From NCBI GenBank assembly GCA_029204225.1, contig CM055095.1:75998896-76062895 (forward strand): a stretch of 64,000 bases of DNA, read 5' to 3'. This DNA comes from Diphasiastrum complanatum (Eukaryota > Streptophyta > Lycopodiopsida > Lycopodiales > Lycopodiaceae). Every line of letters begins with the position of its first letter. Positions within the stretch are counted from its first letter, which is position 1. Positions 1 to 44,639 of the stretch are shown in pieces. The notes under the pieces were generated by a model that was given only the letters and a program-made list of their open reading frames with translations, did no database searches and was not told the DNA's origin. Both the position numbers and the translations under genes were made by a program.

Positions 1-404
1 TTATCAAAGGAGGAAAAGCAATGTGTTTTTCTTGCAATGCCGCTGTCAGAGCAATTCTGCAGCGATTATATTTTCATGAGAAAAGTAAGCGCGTATTAAT
101 TCCTGATCGTAACCTGTGCAGGGAGATGTTGATGGCAACAAAGGATTGAGCTTTGAAGCGATGTAATCGACTTCTCGGGTTACGGAAAATCTGCAACAAA
201 ATGCAAGAGGGAGCTGATACTATCAAAACCGCATCGAAAAAGAAGTGGGTTCTGAAGGAAATTCTCATTTGCTGCAGGGTTTGATCGCAGTATATTGATC
301 ATGATCACAGGAATGCTGCTAGGCAGAGAGGAGGCTTGGTTCAAGGAATAAGGCAAGTCAATTGTGTGTTTAGACTTACAGAGGAAGAAGAAGAAGAAGA
401 AGGA
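1..404 (+). promoter_or_regulatory. 5' flank and presumed 5' UTR of the left BAC2-like gene
   Basis: This is the non-coding lead-in to the first carrier gene. A purine-rich GAA repeat at about 381-402 ends just before the ATG at 405. An upstream in-frame ATG at 336 would add 23 residues including a run of Glu, but family proteins normally start at the MEFW-type motif, so I place the start at 405. No clear TATA box stands out. Compared with the other arm, about 78 bp is missing near 152. Confidence 0.5.
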
Positions 405-2930: not shown

Positions 2931-4120
2931 CAACAGCATCTCCATAATCACTACTCCAAGGATTACTCATATCTACTTCATCATTATTCTCTTTGCATTT
3001 TCCATTAATTAGACCTGTTATTCACTATTTAGTTGGATCTCTCTAGTGATGGCTTAATGCAATTTGAACCAGAGCTGCTTTTCTATCCATGGATGCAAGA
3101 AATGCTTCAAATTCTATGAAAGTCAGATAAAGTGGATCATGACAAATTTGGAAGACATTATTATGGCAATTTATGGTTGTTGATGGTAGTTTTAGAACCT
3201 CAAGATCCATTCGAAATTAATATGGATAGCCATTACTTGGCCTGAGCATCTGTGCATATTAGGTACCCACTTTCAACTTGGTCAGCTACATCATTAAGAG
3301 AATATAAATATAATGGTTGGATTATCATTTGACAACTTTTCTTTTTTGGTTATATTGCATGGTACAAATATTATAATTACGGACTTTCTCATGAATTAGT
3401 CCCCAATTGCAATTTTTTGCTTTGCTTTTTACCCATCTCAGGTTTAGATCTTGCTCTTTGGATAAATTCATGTTCACCATCAATTCCACTCTTTCTGTAA
3501 ACTGCCGAATGTCTATAGTCTCTAGTCCTTGATTGCACTTATTCTTCTAAGCATATGTGTACTTGAAACATAACATCTCTTTATGATACAGAAAGCCAAG
3601 TGACTCTCATATTGACAGAACAAATAATATTGTTGCGATATTATCAAAAGCAAATTGTAGCTAATCTTCTTTGCATATGTCTTCTTATAATATTGTTTTT
3701 CTCCCCCACTACAAACATGGGCAAATTGTCAGACACATACGATGAGGCCCATCTTTGGCTTCTTGGTCCTGTGTGGCAATTTTTGTGGCAATCACATGGC
3801 AATGAGCACGTGGCTCTACCACGTGTGGTAGTGCCACACCACCAAAATTTTCTACGACGACGATGAAAAGGGGACGGGAGGGGGACATGGCACAACCACA
3901 CAATTATTTGAGAGAGAAAAAGCGAGTGGAATGGACATTGGCTTTTTCCCAACATTAGTACTAGTTTTATTATTTGTGATACCAAAAGAGAGAAGAGATA
4001 TGAGAAAATTGAAAGATCAGGTGACAAATAATTAGATTAGATTTTTAACTAGATTTCATTGATAGATTACATGAATGTTAGTTGGATGTTGAATAATTTG
4101 TTTTTGATTTATTGATTTGT
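2931..4120 (+). other. 3' flank of the left carrier gene, inside the inverted arm
   Basis: AT-rich sequence after the stop codon, matching the other arm throughout. Around 3780-3845 it contains repeated CACGTGG-like words. I see no convincing coding frame and no certain polyadenylation signal. Confidence 0.5.
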
Positions 4121-6608: not shown

Positions 6609-7071
6609 ATCGTGAATGTATGTGCTTAGAGTTAACAAAGGTAGTATTAAAAAAGTTAGTGTTAAGGTAGAGTTAGTAAGCACCTAAATTAGCAATTAAG
6701 TATAGTTAAGGCCCTATCTTTGTGTTCTAACACAGGCAGTGTGAAAAAATGGTCAAAATCTATTTTGGTTGTTTTATGTTTTTAGTTTGTGAGGAAAAGA
6801 TCACATGTGTGGAGCATGTTCCCACATGTAGAAAAAGTCAAAAATAGTTTATGATGTTAACTTTAGGGGTATCACAAAGTTTTATGTCAAGCATCTTTGT
6901 GTAGAGTTGTGACAGGGCCAAAAATTGGCATAGTTGGCAAATTGGTCAAATCCACATGTAATGCCACTATTGAGTCAAAAGTCATTTGTGATGCAAACTC
7001 AAGCTATGTAGGCTAGTAAACAGGATTGTGATACTTGTATTAATGTAGTTTGATGAGTGATGAAATCAAAG
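6606..7071. other. Gene-free spacer before LTR_A
   Basis: AT-rich sequence between the CT microsatellite and the start of LTR_A, with no recognisable coding or RNA feature. Confidence 0.5.
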
Positions 7072-7566
7072 TGTTGGCTTTGGTCAAGGGGTACAATAGG
7101 AATTGAGAAATCTTGAAGAAAGGTCCAATAGAATTGTAGGATGGATGCATCACTCATCCAATAGCATTAGAGAGGCTAGGATTAGGGGTCCAATAGCATG
7201 CAAGGAGGATTCTCCCCAGGTTTATATGTACTCCACTTTGGAATCATAATTTAAGTTGAGTTTTTTAGTCAATCTTTGTATGGTGGGATTTGCTTGTTCA
7301 ATCTTCTCTCTCTACCCGAGTTGAATTAGCTCTATTCTCTCTCTACCTGAGGATAGGAGCTTAATTTTACTTAGTTTTATCAAAAAGCACTTCCTCTCAT
7401 GTGTATGTACTTTGGTCATCAACAAATACATCCATCTTTGCCTCTATGCCTTGTGTTTTTGATCTAGATCTTGGAAATCAATCTAGAATCCGTCTACAAG
7501 TGCACAAGCTTGCTTAGGAGATCAATCACACACTTTAGGGCATTCCCAAACGTGTGAATTTTCACA
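7072..7566 (+). repeat. LTR_A, unit 1
   Basis: It starts TGTTGGCTTTGG and ends GAATTTTCACA, directly before a perfect primer-binding site, giving 495 bp with TG...CA ends. A near-identical copy is at 38508-39002. No 3' partner LTR_A is found downstream, so element A is a 5' fragment. Confidence 0.8.
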
Positions 7567-7579
7567 TGGTATCAGAGCC
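7567..7579 (+). other. Primer-binding site (initiator Met tRNA), element A
   Basis: TGGTATCAGAGCC is complementary to the 3' end of plant initiator methionine tRNA, the usual copia primer. It directly follows the CA end of LTR_A. Confidence 0.9.
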
Positions 7580-8326
7580 TACCTAGGTATTTGACGTTTG
7601 TTTCATCCAAAGTTCCAAAATTTTTCTTGAAAATCTAGATCTAGAGAGACTAGTTTGCTTCTCCCATGCTATCTTAAGCAAATTTGGATCAAGAGGGTCC
7701 ATTATCATATGGATTGGACCAAATATGGTACTATACAGATTTTCCTGCTCAGACACATGTGAAGGACAGCCCAATTCATTTTGGTGGTTCTCTTCCATGT
7801 GTGATCCAAAATTGATGCTTGATAGCTAGTTTTAAAGCTATTTGAGTTTAGTTTGTGTAGCAATTGACTTCATATTGATTGGATCTCTCAATTAAAAGTT
7901 ATAGTCAATTGAATCAAGGTGGGTAGGGCACCCAACCTGCTTGGACACTTTTTTCTTTTGACTCTATTATGCTTGTTTGATCAAAAATCTCACTTCTAGG
8001 CTTGCCAATCTTGTTTTCTTGAGATCTAGTTATCATTTTGAGGTCATTGCCACTTTCTTTCATACAATTGGATTGTATTTGAGCGATTTGTGGATTCTTG
8101 GAGTGTTTCCCACGTGCCAAAGATAGCTTGACCCAAACTTAGCCCATACTTCATCAGTTGATGTGAGATTGATCTAGATTAAGAGAGATTGGAAAAGCTA
8201 GTGAGGTCCATATCTCACTTTGTTGCACGATCTTGCATAGGAGTTGGTAGTACACCTTTAAAGGATCCTATAGTGAGAGAGAAGCAACATTTTAGTGTCT
8301 AAATCACAAGGAGTCTTCACTATTAT
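7580..8326 (+). other. Untranslated leader of element A
   Basis: About 750 bp between primer site and gag_A start. It is well conserved at 39016-39759 and more distantly at the right end of the window (63500-64000). It holds no long open frame on the plus strand. Confidence 0.7.
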
Positions 8327-9214
8327 ATGGCATCTATGGGTTCCTACCTATTGGAATCTAGTGAAAGACTATCTACCTCCAACTATTCTATTTGGAAGGT
8401 TAGAATGGAGTCTATCTTGATACTCCAAGATGTAATGGACATTGTACTTGGGATTGAGGAGGAGCCTCAAGTCCTTCAAGAAGTATAAAAGTACAAGAAG
8501 AGAGCTAGGATGGCTCTCCACCTTACCAAGATGAATGTCTCTAATGAGGTTTTGACAGAGATTGGTGTTTGCAACTCAGCCAAGCAAGCTTGGGATTCTC
8601 TCAAAGATATTTATGAAGCCAAAAATACCACTAGACTCCCCACTCTTAGAAATCAAATCTTTCAAAGTTCTCAAAAGATTGATGAGAGTGCCACTAATTA
8701 TGTGTTGAGAGTGAAAGATACTCATAGGGAGCTTGCTTGCATTGGAGGATCCATAAATTAAAGTGAGCTAGTCCAAGTCATATTTAATGGCTTGAGAGAT
8801 GAGTATGAGAACCTTGTCCAATCCTATGCCATCAAGGAGGAGCTACCTATTTTGGAGGCTTTGCAAGGAGTGCTAATGGCTGAAGAATCAAGGCATGAGA
8901 ACAAGCTATTAAGGATGGACAAATTGTCACTCAATCATAATGGTGAAGAAAAAGTTTTATTTTCCAAGCACAAAGAGAGGAACAAAAAGCAACACCAACA
9001 CTTCTCTAAGGACAAAGCAAAAGACCAATATGAAGAGGATGTAAAACACCTGATCAAACAAATGTTGATTCTACTAACAAAGTGCATAGTTTACTTGACA
9101 AAGGATGAGAAACGAACTCGAACTCAAAACACTTCTATTTGTGGTCAACCTCAAAAGATTCATGAAATATCTTGTGGTAACTCAAAAGATTTGCGAACAA
9201 ATTTCATATGGTGA
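8327..9214 (+). pseudogene. Copia gag_A, first copy, broken
   Basis: The frame opens at 8327 (MASMGSYLLESSERL) and shows the copia gag N-terminal signature SNYSIWKVRM, then NSAKQAWDSLKDIYEAK and a Lys/His-rich tail. Two in-frame TAA stops interrupt it, at 8486-8488 and 8759-8761. Both stops are at the same places in unit 2 (39919 and 40192). No CCHC zinc knuckle follows. After about 9040 the sequence changes to the 3'-terminal region of element B (EDVKHLIKQ), so the gag is truncated by a junction. Confidence 0.85.
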
Positions 9215-9289
9215 CTCGAAAGATTTGCGAACAAGTTCTTGTCGCGAAATATTCTATTTCTTGTTCATACCTCACATGTCGTGAACTTG

Positions 9290-10053
9290 GGATTGAGGAG
9301 GAGTCTCAAGTCCTTCAATAAGTACAAAAGTACAAGAAGAGAGCTAGGATGGCTCTCCACCTTATCAAGATGAATGTCTCTAATGAGATTTTGAGAGAGA
9401 TTGGTGATTGCAACTCAGCCAAGCAAGCTTGGGATTCTCTCGAAGCTATTTATGAAGCCAAAAACATCACTAGGCTCCTCACTCTTAGAAATCAAATCTT
9501 TCAAAGTTCTCAAAATATTGATGAGAGTGTCACTTATTATGTGTTGAGAGTGAAAGTTACTCATAGGGAGCTTGCTTGCATTGGAGGGTCCATAAATCAA
9601 AGTGAGCTAGTCCAAGTCATACTTAATGGCTTGAGAGATAAGTATGAGAACCTTGTCCAATCCTATCTCATCAAGGAGGAGCTACCTACTTTGGAAGCTT
9701 TGCAAGGAGTGCTAATGGCTGAAGAATCAAGGCATGAGAACAAGCTATTAAGGATGGACAAATTGTCACTCAATCATAATGGTGAAGAAAAAGTTTTATT
9801 TGCCAAGCACAAAGAGAGGAGCAAAAAGCAACACCAACACTTCTCTAAGGACAAAGCAAAAGACCAAGATGAAGAGGATGTAAAACACCTGATCAGACAG
9901 ATCTCGATTCTACTAACAAAGTGCATAGTTTACTTGACAAAGGATGAGAAACGAACTCGAACTCGAAACATTTCTATTCGTGGTCAACCTCAAAAGATTC
10001 GTGAAATATCTTGTGGTAACTCAAAAGATTCGCAAACAAATTTCTTATGGTGA
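9290..10053 (+). pseudogene. Copia gag_A, second tandem copy
   Basis: This repeats the bases starting near 8447, about 843 bp downstream, in the same orientation. It begins CTTGGGATTGAGGAGGAG, without the gag N-terminus. It reads open from 9349 to 10053 (234 residues) and lacks the second TAA of copy 1, reading SINQSELVQ where copy 1 stops. It keeps a stop just upstream of 9349. The last 30 or so codons run into LTR_B sequence. The duplication is absent from unit 2, so it is local to this locus. Confidence 0.8.
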
Positions 10054-10740
10054 CTCGAAAGATTCGCGAACAAGTTCTTGTCGCAAAATTTTATGTTTCT
10101 TGTTCAAACCTCACATGTCGTAAAATTGTGGCCCGTCGCCTGTCGCGAACAATTCGCAAAATATTTTTTATTCTTCTTCAAGCTCAAAACTATCAACTGT
10201 CGCAAACAATTTGCGAAACACAAAGATGTCATGAAAAGACAAAGTGTCACAAACAATTCACGAAACACAAAGCTTAGACAAAGAGATAAACTGTCATGAA
10301 CAATTCGCGAATAGAAATTATTCGAGCCTGGAAATAGAGTGCTTATTTGAATATCAACTGTCGTAACGGTTAGATCTACTGTTATAGAATTAAAAGGCCA
10401 AAAGACCTGTCCTGTAGCAATATAAATACATGTGGACTACTCATTGTAACACACTCTCATAACTCTCTCAATCAAAGACACAACAGCGAGATAAGACAGC
10501 AAGAGATGTATACTGATGATTTAGATTCAGAATTATAAATTTGTTTTTGATCAAAGTTTCTCATTGTCTAATATTGTTTGAAGTTGTCTCTTAATTTTGC
10601 ATGCTAAATTCAATCAAGGCAAAATTGTTCTATTAGTACATAGATAAAAAATAGACCCGATTGAAGACACTGATATTAGTTTGATTTATTCAAACTTTCA
10701 TCGTGTTTTCTAAAAAAGAATTATAACTATTTTTCCTACA
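9956..10740 (+). repeat. LTR_B, unit 1 (approximate start)
   Basis: It ends TTTTTCCTACA one base before a primer-binding site. Copies are at 14292-15127, 40549-41327 and 46380-47176. Its first half carries four copies of a hairpin motif related to TCGCGAACAATTCGCGA (10143, 10200, 10247, 10294). The words GCAATATAAATACATG near 10420 and the CTCTCATAACTCTCTCAATC run resemble a retroelement TATA box and start region. The left boundary is inferred from where the copies begin to agree. Confidence 0.7.
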
Positions 10741-10741
10741 G

Positions 10742-10753
10742 TGGTATCAGAGC
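10742..10753 (+). other. Primer-binding site (initiator Met tRNA), element B
   Basis: TGGTATCAGAGC, one base after the CA end of LTR_B. Confidence 0.9.
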
Positions 10754-10759
10754 ATATCA

Positions 10760-11310
10760 GAGTCGATATAGTGGTATCCTTACACCCCTCTCAGCATCCT
10801 TCATCCACCAGTAGCCCCTGCCAAAGAACTTCGAGAATGCAATCTCAAAGGAAAAATAGCTTAGCTATTTTCTTCGAGCCCTACCCAGGTCATTCCACAC
10901 AACTCAAACTTTACTGGCAAAAGATTCAACAATGACACTTCAAAAGGCAATAGATGGAGTCAAAGAGGAAGTAAAAGCTCATGAACGATATGACAATAAT
11001 GGTGATTCCAAAAATGCGCTATTTACTCAGAAGAATAAATCTTCAAATAAGTCTAAGTTTAAGAGGGAGTCTTCTAAACAGAATGGAAATGAATCCAAGA
11101 CAAATGATCAACAATCTAGAAAACAACAGAAAAATTTTGGTGATAGGAAGATTTGCAACAGATGCAAAGGATTAGGTCATACATAAGATAAGCGTTGGTT
11201 AAATCCAAAGATTGAATGCATTCATTATCATAAATGGGGTCATGGAGTACTAGACTGTTATCAGAATCCCAAAAATAAGGAGGAGCATAATCGAAGCAAA
11301 CCTTCAGATT
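10760..11310 (+). pseudogene. Copia gag_B, internally deleted
   Basis: Compared with the copies at 15243 and 47292, the first part of gag is lost: the sequence jumps at AACTTCGAGAATG|CAATCTC near 10840. The tail (10932-11186) reads MTLQKAIDGVKEEV and a Lys/Asn-rich stretch to a degenerate CCHC knuckle. CNRCKGLGHT is followed by a stop and then DKRW where Cys is expected. A second knuckle-like piece, CIHYHKWGHGVLDC, lies at about 11219-11260 in the same frame. Confidence 0.75.
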
Positions 11311-11357
11311 CAAACTATGTCGAAGACAAAGCAGAATGCTCCAGAGCATCAAAAGAC

Positions 11358-11783
11358 ATGACAACAAAAAATTCAGCAGCGTATGTTTGTGCTGATCAAT
11401 GTTGTTCATCAAATTCAAAGATTCGAGAAGTAGTACTTGATTCGAAAGCCACGTCACATTTTGTTTCCTCGAAACAAATATTGTCTGAGTACAATAAGAC
11501 GAATTATTCGATATTTATTATACTTGGAGATGGTTCTAAACACGTAGTTGATGGAACTGGTGCACTATGGCTAGACATGAATCAGAGTGACAAGAAACTG
11601 GAAGAAATTCTCTATGTCCCTACTCTTGATAAAGATATTATATTCGTAACAAAGATAGTCGATACAAGCATGTCAGTAACCTTCACAAAGGACTATTGTA
11701 AACTGTTTGATGAGGATTATGATAACCTAGTTGCTAAAAGCAACAAAGAAGGAAATTTGTACTACTTAAACATTCAAACTTGA
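11358..11783 (+). pseudogene. Copia aspartic protease, element B
   Basis: The frame contains VVLDSKATSHF near residue 27, where copia proteases have DSGA(T/S). The catalytic Asp is present but the following Gly is Lys, in this copy and in unit 2. The downstream ILGDGSKHVVDGTG and YVPTLDKDI are typical of copia protease domains. A change of the conserved Gly makes activity unlikely. Confidence 0.8.
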
Positions 11784-12545
11784 ATCGAACAAGCGAATCA
11801 TACTCAAGAATCAACAGATATTCTGTGGCACAAGAGGCTATGTCACATGAACATGGAAGCCTTGTACCAAGCCAACAAAAGTCAGAGAATCGAAGGCGTC
11901 GAAATCAAAAGTCGAGATATTCGAACTACCTGCGAATCTTGTCTTAAAGGCAAAATGACTAGAACACCTTTTAGTAAGGATGTTTATAAAGCAAGCAAGG
12001 TACTGGAAATTGTGCATTCAGATATTTGTGGACCATTTGGAGTATTGTCTTTAGGTGATGCAAAATACTTCATTATGTGTATTGATGACTTCAGCAAACT
12101 CGTTGTGGTATACTTTATTCGTACAAAATCTTTTTGAGAAATTTGTTGAGTATATGAATTGGGCTGAGAAGCAGATAGGCAATAAGTTTAAGCAAATTTG
12201 CATAGATTGTGGAGATGTGTACATTTCCAACGAATTCAAAGCTTACTGTACTGATCGAGGTATTATGCATACGAAGACTGCATATCATATACACCTCAGC
12301 ACAATAGAATAGCTATACGAAGGAATCGTACACTTATGGAAGCTGCTAGGTGTATGATGGCTCATGCGAAAGCACCAAAACAATTGTGAGCGGAACCAGT
12401 GGCTACATCAAATTATCTTTAGAATCGATTTTTGAAATCTCAAATACCAGATAAAACTCCTCATGAGATATGGTGGAAGTCAAAGCCAAATCTTGCACAT
12501 GTTCGGACATTCGGATGCGCAGTTTATATGCACATACTAGACAAA
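11784..12545 (+). pseudogene. Copia integrase, element B, unit 1
   Basis: The zinc-binding part reads LWHKRLCHMN ... CESCLKGK (HHCC). The catalytic core has HSDICGPFG (first Asp) and IDCGDVYIS (second Asp). The region of the catalytic Glu reads NRIAIRRNR instead of the family NG-AE-R, so the Glu is lost, as in unit 2. Frameshifts near 12130 and 12290, and stops near 12388 and 12421, split it further. Confidence 0.8.
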
Positions 12546-13794
12546 TTGAGAAAAAAAACTCGATGAAAAGACAGAACAAGGTTTTGTAGTAGGATTCGAC
12601 TTACATTCATCATATTATCAAGTCTACATACCCGAAACTGGCAGAATAAAAGTTGTTCAAGATGTCAAATTCGATGAGTCAAAATAAATAGCACACAGTG
12701 ATTTAGTCGACTATGATATTCTCAAGAATTATTATGAGCTACCAATGATAGAAGTAAAACAAGAAGAAGATGAACGAAAATTACCAGATTCGGAGAGATT
12801 TAAAGATCGAGTATCTGACAGACTTGAGTCACCAGTTCGAATTCCAGCAAAAAGGTTGAACCCAAAACTGCAAAATCGAACTCGAAACCACTTGTGAGAA
12901 GATCTGATAGACAACAAAAACCACCAGTAAAATTTGGTCAGGATGTTTTAACAAATGTAGCCATCGAATTTTGAGGTTTCTAAGACGAACCTCAAACATT
13001 CGAGAAAGCTATTGATGGACCAGATAAAGATCACTAGATTCAAGCAATGGAGGACGAAATCTCATCCATGTATAAGAACAATGTATGGACACTTGCACCT
13101 ATACCTGATGGAAGAAAACCAGTTAAATCCAAGTGGATCTACAAGGTCAAAACAGGTCCTGATGGAGAGAACATCAGATACAAAGCAAGGTTCATTGCAA
13201 AAGGTTTTTCACAGAAGTATGGGATCGACTACACTGATACTTTCTCACCAGTAGTCAAACACACATCAATTTGCTTGTTATTCACTTATGCAGTGGCTCA
13301 TGATCTAAAAATCCATATTGTGGATGAGAAAATTGCTTTCTTGCACGCAGAATTAGAAGACAACTTATTCATAGACCAACCACTTGGTTTTGTAAGCCAA
13401 GATTATCCAGCATTCGGATGTCACATGAATAAAAGAATAAAAGCATTTATGGTCTGAAACAAGCAGCCAGACAATGGCATAGAAAGAAGGATGAAACACT
13501 ACGTTCTTTAGGCTTCAAATCTCTATTCATTGAATCGAATGTCTATATAAAGCATGTCCAAAATGAAATAATCATTTGAGTTGTTTATGTTGACGACACG
13601 CTAATCTTCTCAATAAAAGATAAACTAATTTTAGATGTCAAAAGAGACATTTCTGAAATATTTGAGATCGCTGACCTAGGAGAAGCAAAAACCTATCTAG
13701 GCTTGTCAATCGAGAGAGACTTTGAAGGTGGTAAGTTGTTACTTCACCAACAAAAGTACACTCAAAAAACCATTCAAGACTTCAACATGCTCAA
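12546..13794 (+). pseudogene. Copia reverse transcriptase, element B, unit 1
   Basis: After a stop-riddled linker, the RT region reads KAIDGPDKDH, MEDEISSMYKNNVWTL, GRKPVKSKWIYKVKT and YKARFIAKGFSQ. The polymerase motif YVDD is intact at 13586-13597, followed by IADLGEAKTYLGLSIERD. At least four stops or frameshifts (about 12975, 13036, 13455, 13580) disable it. Confidence 0.85.
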
Positions 13795-14215
13795 ATGCAA
13801 AGGTGTGCATATCCCATGATACCTGAAACAATACTGAGCAAGGCAAATTGTCTGCAGACTCTTGAGGAAGAGAAGCGAATGGCCAATACACCCTATCGCA
13901 GGATAATTGGATCATTGTTATATCTTGCAGACAACACCAGACCTGATATAGCATTTGCAGTATATAGACAAAGCCAATTTAATCAGAATCCAAAATCGTT
14001 ACATTGGAAGTTGGCAAAGAGAGTAGTACAATATCTCCAGGAAACAAAAGACTATGGAATGTGTTATTCGAAGGAAGCTGGATTTCGGATCGAATCTTAC
14101 AGTGACGCAAGCTGGGCATCCATGAAGCATCAATGATAGCAAAAGTATTTCAGGAGGTTGTACTCTAGTATCTGGTGCAGCCATATTCCAGATAAACAAG
14201 AAGCAAATGTAGAAC
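13795..14215 (+). pseudogene. Copia RT end and truncated RNase H, element B, unit 1
   Basis: It reads YRRIIGSLLYLADNTRPDIAF, the conserved copia RT/RNase H linker, then SYSDASWASMKH (RNase H first Asp). A frameshift follows at about 14130. RNase H stops soon after CTLVSGAAIF, and the end EANVEQLIK runs into LTR_B. The second half of RNase H is missing here, but a detached copy is at 47974-48223. Confidence 0.8.
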
Positions 14216-14291
14216 AACTGATCAAATAGATCTTGATTCTACCAACCAAACGTGCAGTTTACTTGAAAAAGGATGAGAAAGAAACAAACGT

Positions 14292-15127
14292 GAACTCAAA
14301 ACATTTCTATTCGTGACCAACTCAAAAAGATTCGCGAAGGATTCGCAAAATTTGTCTTGCAGTCAACTCCAAAGATTCGAGAAACAGTGTCTTGTGGAAG
14401 CTCATGGCTTTCTTGTTGAAGCTCAAAAGATTCGCGAACAGAATCTTGTCGCAAAAAAATTTTCTGTTTCTTGTTCAAAGCCTCAGATGTTGCAAAATTG
14501 TCGTGAAATCTTCTGGACTGTTCTTCGAACTCACCTGTCGCAAAACTATCTTGAACAGTTCGCGAAATATTATAGTTTCCTTCTTCAAGCTCAAGAATTG
14601 TCATCTATCGTGAACAATTCACGAATGACGAAAATGTTGCGAAGAGTCAAGTGTCGCGAACAATTCGCAAACACAAAACTAAAATGAAGAGACAGATTGT
14701 TGCAAAATATTCGCGAACAGAATTTATGCGAGCCTGGAAACAGAGTGTCTGTTTGAATATCAACCGTCGTAATGGTCAAATTTCTATTGTTACAGTATCA
14801 AAAGGCCAAAAGACCTCTCTTGTAGCAATATAAATACATATGAAATTAACTCAATCAGAGACACAATAGCAAGAGATGTATATTGATGAATCAAATTCAG
14901 AGTTATGAAAAAATTCGTTTTTGATTAATAATTTCTTATTGTCTAAATGGTCTTGAGTTGTCTCATACTTCCGCATATAATTTTTGCACGCATATTCATT
15001 CAGAATAAATATTGTTCTATTAGTACATAGATCAGATAAAATCGCGATTGAAGACACTGATATTGGTTTGATTTATTCGAACTCGCATCATGTTCTATGT
15101 GAAAGAATAACTGCTATTTTTCTTACA
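14292..15127 (+). repeat. LTR_B, second copy
   Basis: It matches 9956-10740 and 46380-47176 and ends TTTTCTTACA one base before another primer site. It carries two of the 17-base hairpins (14608, 14654) plus further TTCGCGAA words. It follows unit 1 pol directly, so it could be the 3' LTR of unit 1, but a primer site and a new gag follow it. Confidence 0.75.
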
Positions 15128-15128
15128 G

Positions 15129-15140
15129 TGGTATCAGAGC
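15129..15140 (+). other. Primer-binding site (initiator Met tRNA)
   Basis: TGGTATCAGAGC after the second LTR_B copy. Confidence 0.9.
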
Positions 15141-15242
15141 ATACGGAATTAAAGTTGATACAGTGGTATCTTCATATCCCTCTTAACATTTTTCATACAT
15201 CCATCAGTAAGCCGCTATTTGGACCTTATTCAGAATTAAAAG

Positions 15243-15872
15243 ATGTCATAGATCACCAACATTCAAGCTAAGATCACTACTATCTTGGACCCAGAAGGTT
15301 CAAACTACTTGATTTGGAAATTAAAGACTTCACTCTTGTTGAAAGGCAAAGGTCTATGGCAATGGATAGAACCAATTGAGAAGAAGCCAGAAGCTACTCT
15401 TGGCAAAGAACTTCAAGAATGGAGTTTAAAAAATGACAAAGCTATAGCAATTATTGCATCTTCAATGCATGACAATATAATGCTAGATCTTACATCAATT
15501 TCAAACGCAAAGGATTTATGGGAAGGATTTATTTCAAACGCAAAGGATTTCAAATGAAAAATGAGACTCGATCTCGTAATCAGATCATGTTTTTGGAAGA
15601 CCAATTAACTTACCTACAGTGGGATGGCAAAGACCTGAACACATTCGTGCGAAAGATAAAAGATCTATTTATTTCCTTGCAGAATTTCAGTGCAAAGAAT
15701 ATAATTTCTAAGGAGAAACAGCTTAGTTATTTTCTTCATGCCCTACACAGGTCATTCCACACAACTCGAACCTTGTTGGTGAAAGATGCGACAATGACAC
15801 TTCAAAAGGAAATAGATGGAGTGAAGGAGGAAGTAGAAGCTCGTGAACGCTATGACGACAATGGTGATTCAT
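15243..15872 (+). pseudogene. Copia gag_B, truncated
   Basis: The start codon is at 15243. Codon 3 is TAG where the copy at 47292 has TCG. It then reads ITTILDPEGSNYLIWKLKTSL, GLWQWIEPIEKKPE and LTSISNAKDLWEGF. The 20 bases ATTTCAAACGCAAAGGATTT occur twice 38 bp apart (near 15498 and 15534), a small local duplication that shifts the frame. The gag stops matching at about 15872, before the zinc knuckles, so the rest of this element is lost. Confidence 0.8.
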
Positions 15873-16394
15873 AAAATGCTCTATTTCTTTCCTTATCAAG
15901 GGTGTTGATTAGGAAGTGACTAATATCCTTAATAGATGATTGAATAGAGGATGATGCCATAGGAGGGTCAGCAACAGAAACTTCCTCATTATCTGGGATC
16001 TGAACTAACAAGAAAAGTACGAAACCACTCTGATATTCAACCACTCGACATTTCTTGTTGCAATAAAGACACATTGAACTGCTTTTGAAAAGATCAAACA
16101 ATTTGGTGAACATTCTATCTAGTCTATGTTTGAAAGATGGGAAGAAATGAACAAGATCAGTATAATTCATGTACAAGAGTGAGCCTATGGAGATAACAGA
16201 CTTACTAAGTATATCCCTGAATCTAACATAATGTTCATAAAATACGTCAGAATTTGGTTGTGCAGTTCTTAAAACATGTAAATATGGCCTGAATAGGCTG
16301 TGGAAGTAGTCTAGATTTTCAGTAATCCCAAATTTTTAAAAAAATAAACTCAGGCCTGAATCTCATGTAGATCCTGAGGAAGAGGCAATGGAAC
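15873..16394. other. Unrecognised segment between gag_B and the H3-like locus
   Basis: The minus strand is open from 16176 to 15850 (108 codons) with a CLYCNKKC word. I cannot relate it to a family, and it may be chance. Confidence 0.3.
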
Positions 16395-17200
16395 TACGAC
16401 AGATATCGCACTTGTACACGAGGGAGAACAAACAAAACAAAACTAACTCTAACGATCGCACACAAGAGGGATATATATGGCAGGTAGCAACTGAATATCG
16501 CACTTGTGCGCAAGTAGGTATCATTGCAAAAAATGGAAAACAAGGCATGCGCACAAGAGCGATATGTTGTGAATTTCGAGAAAGAAAAAAATAAAAAATT
16601 AATCAGGTTTTGTGCCTTTTATACATTTTCACACCTGTGGTCAACGGTCAATGGACACGTGTTTACTTCCAATTGGACTGCAAGCACTGGCATGTGTGAG
16701 GTGACACTTGGACACGTGTGAAATGACACCAATACACGTGTCTCGTGTTCATTCGTCGGTTCAACAACACATGTCGCTCTCGCATTTGGCCGTACAAATC
16801 CCACACATGTAAAATGACAACCTGACATGTGTCGCTCTCGCATTTGGCCATACAAATCCCACACATGCGACAGGACATTCTTGCGCACGTGTGAACCGTG
16901 ATATAAAATCACAAACTTCGATGAATTTTTTTCTCTTTTTTTTGGGGTCTGCATATCGTACTTGTGCGCCTCCTTCACAATCGATATTCTGCCTACTGCC
17001 TTCCATGCGCACAAGTCCGATATTTTTGCCTACATGTCTCCTTATATCGGACTTTTCATCTCTCTTCTATACTAATCGATCTCTCTGATATTTGGCTCGC
17101 ACAGGTCCGATATACCGTACATTCTTTCCGTACATATCGGTCCTCTACGAGGGCTTCATAATCCTTCCTTGCTTATCCTAGTCGTCATGCACACGTGTGA
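16395..17200. repeat. Cluster of short two-orientation motifs and CACGTG boxes
   Basis: At least eight copies of a word like ATATCGCACTTGTGCGC or its reverse complement occur, for example near 16404, 16492, 16546, 16951, 17007 and 17098. Five exact CACGTG boxes lie at 16656, 16713, 16735, 16886 and 17192. A 58-bp tandem duplication sits at 16768-16873. The cluster ends just upstream of the H3-like ATG at 17220, so it may be its promoter or an LTR. No coding frame is convincing here. Confidence 0.6.
16768..16873. repeat. 58-bp tandem duplication
   Basis: GTCGCTCTCGCATTTGGCC followed by (G/A)TACAAATCCCACACATG occurs at 16773 and again at 16831, 58 bp apart, with few changes. Confidence 0.85.
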
Positions 17201-17219
17201 TATCCCCTAGTACACTTCC

Positions 17220-17618
17220 ATGGATAGGAGAAAGCAGACAAGGAGGGATTTCTTCTCTGCTGGCTCGTTTTTAGCTCCTGTAGTTGCCATTACACCTCCC
17301 GCTAGATCTAGAAGGCGCAACCGCAGCAGGTGGCTCTCTAAAATACGTAAGTATCAGAGATCAGCCACTCTATTGATTCCCAGAGCTCCATTCTACCGTG
17401 CCGTCCGAAATATAACTAGAAATGATCTTGGACAGCTTGTTAGATTCACACCCACATCTCTCTAGTGCCTTCAAGAAGCTGTTGAAGACTATATGAGTCT
17501 TTCTTTTGAAGATTTATTTGTGCTTGCTATTTATTCCAAGAGAGTCACCATAATGCCTAAGGACTTTCAGCTACTAAAGATAATGAGGGAGAGGTTTTGC
17601 AAGTTACATGTATCTTAG
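17220..17618 (+). pseudogene. Divergent histone H3 / CENH3-like reading frame with one internal TAG
   Basis: The frame opens at 17220 with a short Arg-rich tail (RSRRRNRSR near residues 29-37) and then follows the H3 fold. SKIRKYQRSATLLIPRAPF (40-58) matches the alpha-N and alpha-1 region, AVRNITRND the end of helix 1, [10 protein letters not shown] helix 2 and [13 protein letters not shown] (106-118) loop 2 and helix 3. The LLIP and VRNIT words, KDFQL in place of KDIQL, and a slightly longer loop 1 (RNDLGQLVRF) resemble centromeric H3 more than canonical H3. A TAG at codon 82 (17463-17465) falls in helix 2, so as read it is a pseudogene. The frame has no intron. The next TAG is at 17616-17618. 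I am confident of the H3 family, less so of CENH3 over another divergent H3. Confidence 0.8.
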
Positions 17619-18024
17619 CCTGCTGCTCCCATACTTGTTCCTCTAGATAGGACTGATCTTCCGAAAAATGTAAGGAGGGTAGATACCACCAAATCTGTGA
17701 AGCCTAACCCGGAACCAATTGTAGATGATGCTACTCTAGATAATGTTGTAAATATAGCTACATTGATTTTGGATACCCTTGTACAAAGCCGATGTTGTAG
17801 ATAGAATTGGTACTCCTTTTTGTTTTAGACTAGAGGAACTTGACTTAAGTATAAATTATAGAGTTGTTGATTGTTTGGATCTCAAAAATAGACGGGCTTT
17901 TATCAGTGATCTTGTGATAGAGTCTGGGCTTACACTCTTGCAATATGACATCGCAAGAGATTCTTCCAATGAGTTGTTGGTGCTGAGTAACTTTTTGCTT
18001 CAGGCCTTTAAGGAGAATAACGAC
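17619..18024 (+). pseudogene. Unknown conserved domain downstream of the H3-like frame
   Basis: The H3 frame stays open past the TAG at 17616 (PAAPILVPLDRTDLPKNVRR...) to about 17805. From 17779 the next frame reads ADVVDRIGTPFCF, VVDCLDLKNRRAF and GLTLLQYDIARDSSNELLV. The latter part has a close copy at 44960-45316, which runs to its own stop. I recognise no family. The match ends near 18022, where gypsy sequence takes over. Confidence 0.5.
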
Positions 18025-18025
18025 A

Positions 18026-18667
18026 TGGTTGACTCCATAGATGTTTTCTTGTCGTCAACCTGGTTCTTGTTACCAAATTCGTGTTCAGATTTGTCACTCG
18101 AATCGTCAGACTCTTTCGAGTTTGTGTCTACAATGTTAATTTCTTCATACAAAACATCAGCTTCATCATTGCAGGCATCGAAGAATTTTTCATCATCAGC
18201 ATTCTCATAACGTTCAAAGTACTGCACTTCAATATCAGATTTATAGAAAAAAATATTCAAGGCATACAAAGATTCTTTAGATGTAAAACTGGTGTCGGAC
18301 AAAGGAGTTTCACCTTCATATTTGTCACGACTCCAGATTATGATTTGTTCTGCTGGCTTACCTTGATTATTGGTCTCACCAGTTTGAAATCTTAGCTCTC
18401 TGGATAAAGCCAAGGTCGTCCAATCAGCACAGAATAGGATGATAAACCGAGTGGTTTGATAACAATAAAATTCGTGGTGAATGGCTTGGCTTGAATGTAG
18501 ACGGTGACATCCTTCAGCTCACCAACAGGTTTTCATCATGTTGAATCAGCTAACTTGATGTTTCGTTGTGTTGGTTGAATGTCAGTCAGCCCCAGAGCAT
18601 GAGCTGTGTCTTCTGTTATTATATTTACACTAGAACCAGAGTCAATTGGCACATTTTTGATTAGGCA
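18026..18667 (-). pseudogene. Ty3/gypsy retropepsin and linker, element gypsy-2
   Basis: Read on the minus strand, the protease motif is VPIDSGSSVNII near 18640, followed by HALGLTDIQP, two stops (KLADST then TAA-type stops), and a flap-side LSSYSVLIGRPWL near 18420. The end of the frame (18413-18000) is an acidic linker (FFDACNDEADVLYEE). RT should come next but the element stops at the junction near 18025, so the polymerase is absent. Confidence 0.75.
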
Positions 18668-19565
18668 TCATGCAATAGCAACATCAATTTCAGGTGCACC
18701 GAGATCACCTAAATCAATGGACAAAACACCAACATCTGGTAGAAAATTTTTCTTCTTCTTCTTCGTAGGCACATAAAGGCCTTTCAACTGCTTTCTGTAA
18801 TAAGTGTTATCTACCAACAGCTGTTCAAAAGTAATGTTTGGTCGAAGAGATCCGATATCAGTTACGATGTCATATTCTTTTGTCTTTGATTTTGAGGTTG
18901 GTTTATCAATAACAGCACTAGACAATTTCGTCTTCGCAATTTCTTCGTCTTCTTCCTTGAAAGCGACCACCTTCTCTGCAGGAACAGTCTTTAGTTCAGC
19001 GTCGATGATCTCCTTTGCTTCTGCTGAGATATCTTTTGCAAATAACTTCGCAGCATCACGGTCATAGTCAGGGTCATCCTTGAGATATTCTTTAGTTGTG
19101 GATTTGTTCGTCATCTTGCTAGAAGATTTTGTCTTCGCGGATTTTCTGTGCTTTGTCGAAGATTTCTGATCAGGTTTCGAGGAGCTTTTGCTTCTCGTGG
19201 TGACTTCAAAAATATTTTTCACGTCAGTCGGCCAGGATTGATCTTTAGTCATTGCCAATTTTTCTTCAATAACGTCAATTCTCTATACAATAGCATCTGT
19301 CACAGCTTTCGCTTTTGTGTCTGCGGCAGCTGGTGTTGCTACATACTGATATTTGGGCCGCGGATTCTGCGGATGAGGGCAGTCAGGATACTTGTGACCA
19401 GGTTCTCTACATTTTGAACATAATGGTACGAAACCAATTGGCTTCTGTGGTTGAGGACAGTCAGGAGAAAAATGTCCCGGCTCTCCACAGTTGTAGCAGT
19501 TGCCCGAAACTAGTTTATTCAAGGTTTGAGACTTCGCTGGTCCAACAAATTTAGGAGGATTATGT
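18668..19565 (-). pseudogene. Gypsy-2 gag C-terminus with two CCHC knuckles
   Basis: Minus-strand frame 19522-19283 holds two adjacent zinc knuckles, CYNCGEPGHFSPDC and CSKCREPGHKYPDC, which bind nucleic acid in gag. A stop at about 19282 separates them from a Lys/Ser-rich linker (19258-18668) ending LGDLGAPEIDVAIA, just before the protease. Confidence 0.8.
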
Positions 19566-19662
19566 CTTCTTGGTGCGAATTTGGGTCTATCTTGCTGGGC
19601 TGATGCTGTAGTACCCGTACATAGTTAGTAGTCGCATCATTCTAAAAAATAAAAAGTACCTC

Positions 19663-20747
19663 CTAGGCAGGATCTTTAATGTATTTCACATTAACGAAAG
19701 TGCAGTCTTCCTTGGTGTGTCCAGATGTTCCACATTTTATACACCACATTCCTGAGTTAGAAGAAGATACCTTTGGTCTTTTATCTACAACTTTTGAGAT
19801 CTGCAATTTCAAGTCATTAAATTTTTTATTAAGGTCAGCCATATTACTTTTCCAAAGCTTTTCCACTTTGGAAGTTGATGACTTATCCTCGACAACTTTC
19901 GTGTCGTTCTTTCATTTAGTTCGTCGTTTATTCTTTTTCTCTCCTTTGTCAGCATCTGATTCTGATGAATTGCTACTTTCAGATTCCAAGCTTGAAGAAC
20001 TACTACTGGAATCTGAATCTGAATCATCATCGTTGTCATTGGAATTAGTCTTAGACTTTCGAGATTTCTTCGTTGATCGCCGCTTTCGTGCTAATTTCGA
20101 AGTCTCAAAATTTTCTACACTAGCTATAACAATTGCTAAGGATTTCATGTCCCCTTGTCTGCAGTATCGATCAATCTTTGGTGGTAGACCAGCCAAAAAC
20201 CATTCGATTTGCATATCCACGGGATATACACCGGTTAGTTTTCCTATTAGGTTTTTAACCTTACGTGTATATTTGCGAAGAGATTCTTTACTCTTCTTCT
20301 GAACATCGTTCAGTCGTCCAAGAATTCTAGATTTGTAACCTATCTCTCTGAACTGGTTCAGAAATGCATCTTTCAACAGGTACTAGGTTCCTACACGGCT
20401 TGGTTCTACCTAACTATACCAGATACGCACCTGCTTTCTTAGCAGACCAGGAAAAATTTGTAGTTTGTCTACGTCAGTTCCCTAATATTCGCATTGGCTA
20501 TTGACTCAAATTGTGAGACATAGCTATCTGCATCATCGGAGCTAGTCCCTTTAAAATAATCATATTTAATTTTAGAGATAGAAGTGAAGCGTGTAGTAGG
20601 GCCCTCCATACAGAAGCTAATTAGGAGTTCAAGTAACTGAGCAGTGATTTTGTCTAGATTTCTATGACTAATACTTTCACTCTGTCTTCGTAAAAACTCC
20701 TCTCTAAGCTTCCGATATCTTTCTAATCTCGATTCTCTATCTGACAT
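19663..20747 (-). pseudogene. Gypsy-2 gag capsid and first CCHC knuckle
   Basis: The frame starts at 20747 (MSDRESRLERYRKLREEF). It continues with capsid motifs SQFESIANANI, LKDAFLNQFREIGYKSRI and KESLRKYTRKVKNLIGKL, then an Asp/Ser-rich linker (about 20040-19930) and a zinc knuckle WCIKCGTSGHTKEDC near 19720. This order is that of a Retrotrans_gag protein. Breaks occur near 20470, near 20380 and at 19915. Confidence 0.8.
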
Positions 20748-20798
20748 ACATTAGAGATGGAAATGGATCTTCAAATTTCTTATAACTTTTCCTAAACT

Positions 20799-20817
20799 AT
20801 CCCCAGCAACGACGCCA
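20799..20817 (-). other. Primer-binding site of gypsy-2
   Basis: On the minus strand this reads TGGCGTCGTTGCTGGGGAT, close to the TGGCGCCGTTGCCGGGGA site common in plant Tat/Athila-type gypsy elements. It lies between LTR and gag, as expected. Confidence 0.8.
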
Positions 20818-27918: not shown

Positions 27919-30900
27919 ACAAATCAATAAATCAAAAACAAATTATTCAACATACAACTAACATTCATGTAATCTATCAATGAAATCTAGTTAAAAATCT
28001 AATCTAATTATTTGTCACCTGATCTTTCAATTTTCTCATATCTCTTCTCTCTTTTGGTATCACAAATAATAAAACTAGTACTAATGTTGGGAAAAAGCCA
28101 ATGTCCATTCCACTCGCTTTTTCTCTCTCAAATAATTTTGTGTGGTTGTGCCATGTCCCCCTCCCGTCCCCTTTTCATCGTCGTCGTAGAAAATTTTGGT
28201 GGTGTGGCACTACCACACGTGGTAGAGCCACGTGCTCATTGCCATGTGATTGCCACAAAAATTGCCACACAGGACCAAGAAGCCAAAGATGGGCCTCATC
28301 GTATGTGTCTGGCAATTTGCCCATGTTTGTAGTGGGGGAGAAAAACAATATTATAAGAAGACATATGCAAAGAAGATTAGCTCCAATTTGCTTTTGATAA
28401 TATAGCAACAATATTATTTGTTCTGTCAATATGAAAGTCACTTGGCTTTTTGTATCATAAAGAGATGTTATGTTTCAAGTACACATATGCTTAGAAGAAT
28501 AAGTGCAATCAAGGACTAGAGACTATAGACATTCGGCAGTTCACAGAAAGAGTGGAATTGATGGTGAACATGAATTTATCCAAAGAGCAAGATCTAAACC
28601 TGAGATGGGTAAAAAGCAAAGCAAAAAATTGCAATTGGGGACTAATTCATGAGAAAGTCCGTAATTATAATATTTGTACGATGCCAATATAACCAAAAAA
28701 CAAAAGTTGTCAAATGATAATCCAACCATTATATTTATTTTCTCTTAATGATGTAGCTGACCAAGTTGAAAGTGGGTACCTAATATGCACAGATGCTCAG
28801 GCCAAGTAATGGCTATCCATATTAATTTCGAATGGATCTTGAGGTTCTAAAACTACCATCAACAACCATAAATTGCCATAATAATGTCTTCCAAATTTGT
28901 CATGATCCACTTTATCTGACTTTCATAGAATTTGAAGCATTTCTTGCATCCATGGATAGAAAAGCAGCTCTGGTTCAAATTGAATTAAGCCATCACTAGA
29001 GAGATCCAACTAAATAGTGAATAACAGGCCTAATTAATGGAAAATGCAAAGAGAATAATGATGAAGTAGATATGAGTAATCCTTGGAGTAGTGATTATGG
29101 AGATGTTGTTGCTACATGGGGGTGGGGTTCTCAAGCATTGTTTCCTGAGATGGTTGCGAATAGAATAATCTTAAAGTCATCTCGTAGGCAGAAAAAATAG
29201 CTCCATTCACCAAATAAGCTCTTGCAATAGCAGTTCCAACTCCTCGAAAGAGCACTGAAACTCCCTCCTCTCGGATGCTCCTCGAGATGCAATCAGTGAT
29301 ACCTTTGTATCTCCCGCGACTGTCACGTCCCTGTCCCTGTGCCTGAAGGCGAGATTTTACAACGTCCAGTGGATAACAAGCTATCCAACTTAATGCTCCA
29401 GCACATCCACCTGCTGTGAGCATGGTCATGACAGTTTCACCCCCATTTTTTCGACAACCAGGATGCAAATACTCTCGAATATACTCATATGCAGCAAAGT
29501 AGACACCATGGCTAGGAGCATCTCGCAGCACAGTCACTCTGAAACCTCTGTACAGTCCTCTCACACCCTCCCTCTTGATGATGTCTCGTGCAACATCACA
29601 AGGACCATCAAAATTGATGGTGGGCCGAGATCTTCCGCCGCCGTGAGCCGTGTGTAGCTGCAAGCGAATTTTGACAAGATCTACTGGTGTCAATATTAGT
29701 GTCTGCAAGGAACCTGCTCCTATTCCAGCAGCTGCAACTCTGTGAAGAGGCAAAGGCTCACTCTTTTCAACAGCTAAAGCTCTAGATAAGAGAGCGTACG
29801 CCTGAAATGCTACAGCATTCTATACAGCACAACCAACAGGTCAAAGGATCAGTCAGCCAGAGTTGCTTCCGGGTATTAAGCTCATTAAACTTCAGGTACA
29901 GATATTACTTCAAGCGGAGAAATGTAGAGTAAAACTCTGAAAACATTCGCACATTTTGGCATACAACTATATATTATGGAAATCCTCTTGTAAACACAAA
30001 CTTTTAGTCAACAGCCAATCTTCCTCCAATCATGAGGCAATCAAAACATAACAACCAAAACTAGCATTTCGCTACTAGATTTCACAGGGTCAAGAGGCTC
30101 CCAATAGCAGGTTATTTTGGAATGCTTATTTTTAAAGCTGAGGGAGATAACAGTATTGACCGAGCTTATAATTCATGTACGTAAAAACCTGAAAGCTTAA
30201 ATTTCATCTGGAAAATGGACTGTTTGCTCTCCCTTGTAGCTACTTTCTCCCAGAAGCTGATTGAAGCGTACAGAACAGTAGATCAAAGTACAAGACACGT
30301 GATTGCTAGTGGTTTTTGGTATTTATGGGATCACCACGAATCAAACCTGGTTGCCCGAGCCAAACTCAAGCACGCATGATACACCCACGTGTTTGCTTAT
30401 GGCTGCAACAGTTTCATTCTACTCAACAATGTAGCAATCCTCGCGAAAACGGAAAGTGGTCCACCATACATAGAAAGAACTAAACTATGTGATTTACAGA
30501 GGTTAATAAGGTGGGGTAGGAAGTTCTCTAGGATATCATAACTGACTGAAGGAAGTGTTTCCGCAGCAAGCACGATCGTTATGAACAAAGTTTTAGCGCA
30601 ATACAAACCCTTACTGATGCAGAATGGTTTCCTCTAAAGGCCAAAATGTGATACTAAGAGCTCGACATCAATGACCAGATACACTAAATATATTCACGTT
30701 CTTGAACTGGTGAGGCATGAGTTCATAACTTCTGATTGCTCGATCAAGCTTTGGGTTTGATGCTCTGAGTAGAACTTTTAGCCTGATACCACACGAGGGA
30801 GATCCTTGTAGCTGCGAATACATTAGTGGCTCAATCCAATTTAGCAAACTACAATAGTTGGATGATTCCTGCACAGCAACAATGACCATTAACTAGTGGT

Positions 30901-32112
30901 GAAGATCTTAAGCTTGCAGTTTTCATCGACCTGTACAGGGATACTAGATAGGAATCGGCAATCCTTAGAGGATCTTAAACAAGATTAGAGTTTATTCTTT
31001 TACTATTATTTCAAGCTGTACATGCAAAGGTTGGAATAGGATGCAATGCTTGCAGCATCTTCCAAATGATGAGCATGCTTCCAGCTTCTTGTTGATCATA
31101 AGAGCTAGCTTTCAGGATATACAGCTTCACGCTTCTTCTCTCCTTTGCGTAGAAGGATTGATGAAAAAAATGGCATTCTTCAGTCTGGGAAGCATGCTTG
31201 AATTATTTATGATCGCATTGTTGAGTCTGTTCTAATATGTAAATATAATCCCAAAAAAAGGCACAACCGATGTCATAAGTTGCTGCAGTTTGCTACAGGG
31301 AGCTTGATTAATGAGTAGATTTACTGAGTGATGGAAATGCAGATGCTTGATAATTGAGACTTGAAAGATTGATAAAGAATCAACCTGAATAGCGACAGTG
31401 GCAAGAGGCGAGGACATCCCTTTGAAGAAAGCAGACGACCCTTCGGTGGCTAGCAGATGGCGTACCACCGCTCCAGCCGTAGTTGGCCCAGAAGCAGAGG
31501 GCCGCTGCGGCTGCTGCAAGTGGATTCGAATGGTGTCCAGAGGATGGCCAGCGATCACCCCTGCTATGCCACCCAATCCACCTGCTAGAAAGTCTTTTCC
31601 CAAAGAAAATGTCAAATGATCCCGCCAGAACTCCATTCCTTCTTCTTCTTCTTCTTCCTCTGTAAGTCTAAACACACAATTGACTTGCCTTATTCCTTGA
31701 ACCAAGCCTCCTCTCTGCCTAGCAGCATTCCTGTGATCATGATCAATATACTGCGATCAAACCCTGCAGCAAATGAGAATTTCCTTCAGAACCCACTTCT
31801 TTTTCGATGCGGTTTTGATAGTATCAGCTCCCTCTTGCATTTTGTTGCAGATTTTCCGTAACCCGAGAAGTCGATTACATCGCTTCAAACTATTAGTCAA
31901 GATGAACTTCCAAAACACATGGGATGCAGAAAAAGGGTACACCGTAGAGCACCTGGCGCAGCTCAATCCTTTGTTGCCATCAACATCTCCCTGCACAGGT
32001 CACGATCAGGAATTAATACGCGCTTACTTTTCTCATGAAAATATAATCGCTGCAGAATTGCTCTGACAGCGGCATTGCAAGAAAAACACATTGCTTTTCC
32101 TCCTTTTGATAA
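27919..32112 (-). repeat. Right arm of the inverted duplication
   Basis: This is the reverse complement of 1-4120 with about 1% differences by eye. Examples are exon 2 codons giving Val-for-Ala and Val-for-Leu, a single base lost in the intron near 30432, and about 78 extra bases at roughly 31890-31968. It may extend further right, but the partner lies outside the window. Confidence 0.95.
29112..31636 (-). CDS. BAC2: Mitochondrial basic amino acid carrier, BAC2-like, second copy
   Basis: Exon 1 is 31636-31385 and exon 2 is 29819-29112, with the same GT-AG intron as the left copy (31384-29820). The frame is intact at about 319 residues and carries all three carrier signatures. I see two amino acid differences from the left copy in repeat 3: VSVLFRGVGTA here against VSALFRGLGTA there. 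Exon 1 coding appears identical. The gene faces the left copy tail to tail across 26 kb. Both should make inner-membrane carriers for basic amino acids; whether both are expressed cannot be told from sequence. Confidence 0.9.
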
Positions 32113-33480: not shown

Positions 33481-33786
33481 GTACACAATAACATATCACA
33501 GGAGTTCCGACGTGGGCGTTCGATGGATTTTTGGAAATTTTATAATTTATCGCATTTTGACGGCATCGGATTCCGACACCCAAGTAAAAATTCCCAAATT
33601 GGGCATTTGATGATCGGGAAATTGTGGCTCCAACCAATTTTCAAACTTGTCGTCAGATTCCGACATTCCAACGTGGATATGGCATGGAATATTGTCTACC
33701 AAAAAAAAATAGTTGGCATCCAACGTGGATGTCAGATTCCGACATTCGCATTTTGACGTCCACGTCATTGATGTGTGTATGTGTAT
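33481..33786. repeat. Degenerate repeats with GATTCCGACAT words
   Basis: The words CGGATTCCGACACC, CAGATTCCGACATTCC and CAGATTCCGACATTCG occur at about 33567, 33655 and 33732, with CAACGTGGAT nearby twice. It looks like a short, old tandem array. Confidence 0.5.
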
Positions 33787-33875
33787 ATGTTTTGCATTTT
33801 GCATTGATTTAGAATTTAGGGTAATAGATAAGTAGATAGTGTTTGATAGTAATTGAATGTTAGATTTGTAATTGG

Positions 33876-33949
<74 letters not shown>

Positions 33950-34042
33950 GTGTGTGTGTGTTTTGCATTTTGCATTGATTTAGGATTTAGGGTGATAGAT
34001 GAATAGATAGTGTTTGATAGTAATTGAATGTTAGATTTGTAA

Positions 34043-34136
<94 letters not shown>

Positions 34137-34314
34137 GCATTTTGCATTGATTTAGAATATAGGGTGATAGATGAATGGATAGTGTATGATGAAAATTGAA
34201 TGTTAAATTTGTAATTTGTTAGAGAGAGAAAAAATTAAATGCATATTGTATGATGATTTGCATAGAAAGTTAAATATGCAATTTGTTTAAACAAAGCTAA
34301 AATAGACTGAAAGA

Positions 34315-34400
<86 letters not shown>

Positions 34401-34579
34401 GATTGTTGTAATCTTATAGAAATTATTACATTTGTGAAAATAAAATACAAATTAGATGATGAGAGAGAGAGAGAGAGGATGTGATGTGAGTGTGTGTGTG
34501 TTTTACATTTTGTATTGACTTAGGAATTAGGGTAGTAGATGATAAATAGTGTTTGATGGTAATTGAATGTTAGATTTGT

Positions 34580-34652
<73 letters not shown>

Positions 34653-34790
34653 GAGTGTTTTGCATTTTGCATTGATTTAGAATTTAGGGTAATAATAGAA
34701 TGAGAATGAGAGAAGTAGATTAGTATAACACAATAGAAATTATTAGAGAGAGAGAGTGTGTGTGTGTGTTTTGCATTTTGGCATGTGTGT
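33787..34790. repeat. Minisatellite with embedded (AG)n and (TG)n runs
   Basis: Six copies of a unit starting TTTTGCATTTTGCATTGATT begin near 33790, 33961, 34133, 34501, 34658 and 34769. A full unit continues with TAGAATTTAGGGT, a TAGATAGTGTTTGATAG word, AATTGAATGTTAGATTTGTAA, a long AG run and a short TG run. AG runs occupy about 33886-33943, 34048-34106, 34320-34396 and 34583-34650. Spacing varies with AG-run length. Confidence 0.9.
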
Positions 34791-41327: not shown

Positions 41328-41328
41328 G

Positions 41329-42135: not shown

Positions 42136-42139
42136 TCAA

Positions 42140-44636: not shown

Positions 44637-44639
44637 TAC

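Follow-up and report, generated by a model that had tools for sequence, protein, structure and literature searches.

An H3-fold reading frame was found on the plus strand at positions 17220-17618 of the window, i.e. the whole 64-kb stretch of DNA that was analyzed. It lies between a Ty1/copia-like sequence and a truncated Ty3/gypsy element of opposite orientation. The features of the locus, together with a repeated block further downstream, are the following.

14207-15886, plus strand: Ty1/copia-like sequence, delimited by self-similarity within the window; stops at the left edge of the H3 segment
15129-15140: tRNA-Met-type PBS in this left copia-like sequence
15853-16335, minus strand: opposite stop-to-stop frame of 161 codons, with the first ATG not before codon 56; possibly non-coding
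16403-17113, no strand: ATATCGCACTTGTGCGC cluster of 7 matches with at most 3 mismatches, in both orientations, at a spacing of ~91 bp per side
16453-16720, no strand: left palindrome arm, with TATAAAAG at 16616-16623 on the minus strand
16802-17078, no strand: right palindrome arm, with TATAAAAT at 16902-16909 on the plus strand
17220-17618, plus strand: H3-fold frame, consisting of a short Arg-rich tail and the histone fold; internal TAG at 17463-17465, final TAG at 17616-17618
17619-17783, plus strand: probable C-terminal extension, the H3 frame still being open for 55 codons beyond the second TAG
17783-18025, plus strand: coding-like block with one open frame, different from the H3 frame
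18026-20817, minus strand: truncated Ty3/gypsy element with PBS, gag-like frame, CCHC knuckle, and protease-like stretch
19286-19624, minus strand: CCHC zinc knuckle, a clear Pfam match
19915-20382, minus strand: gag-like frame, at 22.9 bits just short of the Pfam cut-off of 24.1
20800-20817, minus strand: PBS-like site (2 mismatches in 18), which we take to be of the Tat/Athila type
45000-45242, plus strand: second copy of the coding-like block, downstream of copia sequence (RVT_2 at 43670-44347)

An H3 fold had been proposed in a sequence-only reading, which named a profile search of the two halves as its check and the lack of any H3 profile match as the ground for giving it up. The Pfam profile Histone PF00125 matched the frame with an E-value of 2.3e-22 when X was placed at the internal TAG, and each part also matched singly above the curated cut-off (2.1e-9 before the internal TAG and 4.9e-7 after it). 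Matches of the frame to CENP-T_C (0.0027) and CENP-S (0.021) were both under their Pfam cut-offs. A phmmer search of PDB returned 176 distinct sequences at E ≤ 0.01; among the best 60 of these 176, the top match was an H3 (2.2e-18). A chance match is excluded.

The translation with its single internal TAG was confirmed, and the fold is free of introns, as had been noted. The tail had been described as short and Arg-rich, and the 37 residues N-terminal to the fold indeed contain 10 Arg and 1 Lys. The N-terminal tail of H3 has the conserved form ARTKQTARKS...; this was sought in the frame and is absent, the Arg-rich tail being unlike it. Codon-position GC of the frame proper gives a weak signature (0.43/0.44/0.40). 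Judged by its sequence, 17220-17618 is a real H3-fold gene that has decayed, and this copy itself looks dead. An AlphaFold model of 17220-17783, with a mean pLDDT of 34.9, was set aside as evidence.

Retroelement DNA is present on both sides, in agreement with the earlier description: copia-like sequence extends to 15886, and the gag-like frame, the CCHC frame, and the PBS occupy 19.3-20.8 kb on the minus strand. The H3 frame, on the plus strand, is antisense to all three. The left limit of the gypsy element (18026) was placed where the repeat block ends. Its protease-like stretch was seen by eye, and Pfam gave no protease match. Following a Pfam search of all 11 frames of at least 100 codons starting at 15.85-20.4 kb, no RT, RNase H, integrase, or transposase was found. 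Self-comparison of the window yielded no second LTR, and neither Rfam (gathering score) nor ARAGORN gave matches in the window. The antisense position relative to a truncated gypsy element goes beyond the earlier reading, as do the continuation to 17783, the palindrome, the opposite frame, and the recurrence of the block at 45000-45242.

Palindromic upstream region and probable C-terminal continuation

The region between the H3 frame and the opposite minus-strand frame contains an imperfect palindrome, with arms of ~270 bp and a centre of 81 bp. The arms align with a score of 95; when the left side was block-shuffled 500 times, scores averaged 26 and reached 45 at most. TATAWAAR was found 16 times in the whole window, versus 17.03 expected by chance. 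As TATA-like sites are no commoner than chance, the weight rests on their mirrored positions in the two arms. All 7 ATATCGCACTTGTGCGC matches in the window lie inside 16403-17113, with 0.10 expected window-wide and 2 in the largest shuffle; the motif, which is itself palindromic, was chosen by eye from the region where it was counted. The presumed leaders, taken from assumed start points, show more stable folding than their shuffled versions (z -4.61 and -3.91), and that on the plus strand carries three ATGs upstream of the H3 ATG. The palindromic region is probably a two-way promoter with related halves.

Two candidates were set aside: CACACATGTG, which occurs 11 times in the window (4.31 expected) but is not limited to the palindromic region, and a sigma-70 promoter scan, which is not suited to plants. 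Two 53-nt copies (16767-16819 and 16825-16877; 58 bp apart and 87% alike) are central in the palindromic region and are surrounded by CACATGTG/ACACGTGT-like sites. On the other side of the palindrome, the final codons of the opposite frame (15853-16335) lie inside the copia sequence, and this frame had no convincing match in Pfam or PHROGs.

Downstream of the second TAG, the 55-codon extension has a codon-position GC of 0.58/0.38/0.25 and a purine at position 1 in 0.72, a strong signature. Because of this signature, the gene is probably longer than the histone, a further point beyond the earlier reading. No Pfam family was found in 17619-17783. A PHROGs match to the extension (E 0.0051, 22 residues) was weak and was treated as chance. 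Similarly, the weak Pfam, PHROGs, and PDB matches of the opposite frame, the extension, and the block were set aside as evidence.

The coding-like block (17783-18025) and its second copy (45000-45242) are 95.06% identical over 243 bp in the self-comparison of the window. Both copies are open, and 5 of the 12 changed codons are synonymous. At 45 kb the block frame extends upstream by ten residues that are missing from the first copy. The copia self-match upstream of this second copy reaches 44974, and by eye the ten residues are not copia either. Neither Pfam nor PDB gave a family or structure match for the block. Given its second copy, the block, at least, is repetitive; it may belong to the H3-fold gene or to a different gene of the same element. 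Within the 64-kb window, the H3 segment (15887-17782) occurs once.

Relationship to H3 and CENH3

Six sequences were used as reference folds (H3.1, CENH3s, CENP-A, and Cse4). Fold identity of the H3 frame was 47.7% (41/86) to Arabidopsis H3.1, 45.6% (41/90) to maize CENH3, 44.9% (40/89) to rice CENH3, 42.7% (38/89) to Cse4, 42.2% (38/90) to Arabidopsis CENH3, and 39.6% (36/91) to CENP-A, and alignment to the six folds required no frameshift. Seven diagnostic columns were defined as those in which the three plant CENH3s are alike and H3.1 is different; the frame shows the CENH3 state in five, the H3 state in one, and neither in one. Loop 1, earlier described as longer, is indeed that of H3.1 plus one residue in the alignment, the same as in rice CENH3; in the maize and Arabidopsis CENH3 sequences it is longer than in the H3 frame. 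BLAST scores put H3 slightly ahead (73.9 bits for Arabidopsis H3.1 versus 65.1-67.8 for plant CENH3). In a ten-row tree, none of the seven inner branches was well supported, and the frame, on a branch of 2.02, was not placed.

The leaning toward centromeric H3 that had been suggested is partly supported: most diagnostic columns agree with it, but the bit scores slightly favour H3 and the tree leaves the frame unplaced. The frame bears plant-CENH3 landmarks and is a candidate member of CENH3. With plant CENH3 it shares the H3 fold and, relative to the references used, the LIP, A, T, T, and L landmarks (5/7 columns). It differs in its identity of 42-46% to the three plant sequences and in its C-terminal landmark, which is in the H3 state. 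Unlike plant CENH3, the locus also has a probable C-terminal extension, a promoter-like palindrome, and a broken frame.

Neutral decay was simulated from three references to 45% identity, with 400 runs each and an assumed 1 indel per 10 substitutions. On average, 2.9-3.1 stops and 9.3-9.8 frameshifts arose, and the combination of at most one stop with no frameshift was obtained in 0 of 400 runs for each of the three references. Taken alone, the stops do not decide the matter: at 45% identity, no more than one stop is expected with a P of 0.17-0.20. The comparison favours a frame that diverged under coding constraint and decayed late; its nearest true relative may differ from the references used.

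Origin of the locus

Our leading interpretation, which is tentative and has somewhat less than even confidence, is that the locus is the decayed remnant of an H3-fold accessory gene once carried by a mobile element. The source would most likely be a Tat/Athila-branch Ty3/gypsy element, in which the H3-fold gene was antisense to gag-pol and the H3 segment formed part of the element. RNA of the intact gene would start from its own half of the two-way palindromic promoter, and the product would consist of the short Arg-rich tail, the H3 fold, and, in the same protein, the C-terminal extension. Such a protein might act on nuclear chromatin, with either host H4 as its pairing partner or the DNA of the element itself as its binding target.

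Several features point to this accessory gene: the H3 fold with its coding-like continuation; the repetitive nature of the adjoining coding-like block; the palindrome with its TATA-like sites, ATATCGCACTTGTGCGC cluster, and well-folding leaders; and the orientation of the frame, antisense to that of a gypsy element whose PBS is of the Tat/Athila type. A parallel is provided by the antisense gene of Grande, whose own upstream promoter drives its transcription and whose protein is nuclear (PMC7264820). Against it, RT, RNase H, and integrase were not found, whereas known elements have them between gag-pro and the ORF, and no second LTR was found within the window. In addition, the H3 segment occurs once within the window, the H3 frame has a weak codon signature, the TATA-like sites are at chance frequency in the window, and the frame of the block differs from that of H3. 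The TRP28 domain, present in 97% of Retand clusters (PMC11963269), also has no counterpart here: PF04195 did not match the H3 frame (E up to 1) or the extension, the block, and the opposite frame (E up to 10).

Like the antisense ORFs of Grande and Retand, the H3 locus is antisense to gypsy with a promoter-like region and repeats upstream (PMC7264820, PMC11963269), and a nuclear protein, presumed in our case, would be a further likeness. The region from RT to integrase and the 3' LTR, in contrast, were not found at the H3 locus. The domains reported for antisense ORFs are TRP28, Smc, mitotic checkpoint, DNA polymerase III subunits, topoisomerase 2, and Mis12, as opposed to the H3 fold here, and the word 'histone' occurs 0 times in the main text of that report (PMC11963269). 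A host-type domain in plant gypsy elements is also described for orchids, where Ty3/gypsy elements carry an m6A demethylase domain (PMC9289625); the domain is different, and a group of elements is described there as opposed to one broken copy here.

A broader claim is that a plant LTR-retrotransposon family carries a CENH3-derived histone gene with a C-terminal extension, located antisense to gag-pol and driven by a two-way promoter of its own, whose product would be used for marking or entering centromere-type chromatin or for packaging the DNA of the element. We consider this claim doubtful. We know of no earlier case of a retrotransposon-encoded histone, so that this one would be the first, and among the literature matches listed (titles and starts of abstracts) none described a plant retrotransposon carrying a histone. 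If true, a histone-fold protein as antisense accessory ORF would be a direct pointer to chromatin, and a mobile element would be able to interfere with centromere identity. According to two reports, the role that antisense accessory ORFs play in plant retrotransposons of the Tat branch has yet to be established (PMC7264820, PMC11963269).

Close behind the mobile-element accessory gene we rank a host origin, which is thus a serious possibility as well. A CENH3-type (or H3) gene of the host could have been copied by retroposition or segmental capture, persisted as a fast-evolving retrogene or paralogue, and then decayed, with retrotransposon insertions and template switching breaking it up; the adjacency of this copy to gypsy would be accidental. 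The intronless fold is consistent with such a copy, as are the five sites out of seven in the plant CENH3 state and the patchwork of the region, in which copia breaks off at 15886 and the block appears again inside a copia copy. The lack of a second H3 segment within the window fits as well. Identity is low, however, whether measured against H3 or against the three plant CENH3s used, and the palindromic divergent region and the coding-like extension are foreign to a plain CENH3 copy. Even as a dead host paralogue, the frame would be an unusual one of the CENH3 type in its divergence, its coding-like C-terminal continuation, and its palindromic divergent region.

A fragment of an integrated nuclear DNA virus, with two opposed genes, one of them a viral H3, around a palindromic-repeat control region, is improbable. 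Opposed frames do flank the palindromic region on both sides, several viruses have single H3s, and medusavirus has an H3-like protein with 44% identity to H3 (PMC9145170). Single viral H3s also resemble this locus as lone H3 genes in a possible genomic parasite, but their fold is 73-87% identical to the H3 of the possible host (PMC9145170), as opposed to at most 47.7% between the H3 frame and the references. The landmarks, moreover, are those of plant CENH3, and the PHROGs matches are weak. IMG/VR was scanned with three frames (H3, opposite, and block) and one prokaryote genome with the H3 frame; these scans, which reach close relatives only, gave no relative. Scanning viral contigs with a motif turned up 5 stretches, each with a single match.

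Slightly less probable still, the palindrome could consist of head-to-head TIRs of DNA transposons, each with a captured gene fragment pointing outward. The imperfect inverted arms of ~270 bp, the 81-bp centre, and the outward TATA-like sites would suit this arrangement, but the arms are well diverged and transposase matches were obtained in 0 of the 11 frames scanned.

Least credible is a plain processed pseudogene of a standard H3 or CENH3 gene, to which the intronless frame, the single stop in the fold, and the retroelement neighbourhood might correspond, but which is opposed by an identity of 39.6-47.7% reached without frameshift, by the promoter-like region upstream, and by a longest A run of 5 within 17619-17783; a recent pseudogene of this kind was rejected on the low identity without frameshift and the promoter-like upstream region. 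Among the three options offered in the sequence-only reading, the plain processed copy is the weakest, and both a histone captured by a mobile element and a decayed CENH3 paralogue stand.

Further repeats were observed in the window. The copia-like stretches 7070-15886 and 38505-47523, the latter containing the block at 45000-45242, are parallel and rearranged, with main pieces 92-96% alike and partly tandem. A second gypsy element is located on the minus strand at 51283-57020; its PBS (57003-57020) is of the Tat/Athila type, and an aspartyl protease is weakly matched at 51283-52380. Positions 1-4120 and 27919-32112 form an inverted repeat (99.2% over 3973 bp and 98.7% over 153 bp, ~24 kb apart), which is either a recent inverted duplication or an assembly artefact. 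Both of its arms contain mitochondrial-carrier exons (PF00153), presumably resembling plant BAC2; judged from the sequence, these exons and the types of element present point to a flowering plant. Finally, 172-bp-type repeats form an array at 33770-34702 that also has long GA and GT microsatellites.
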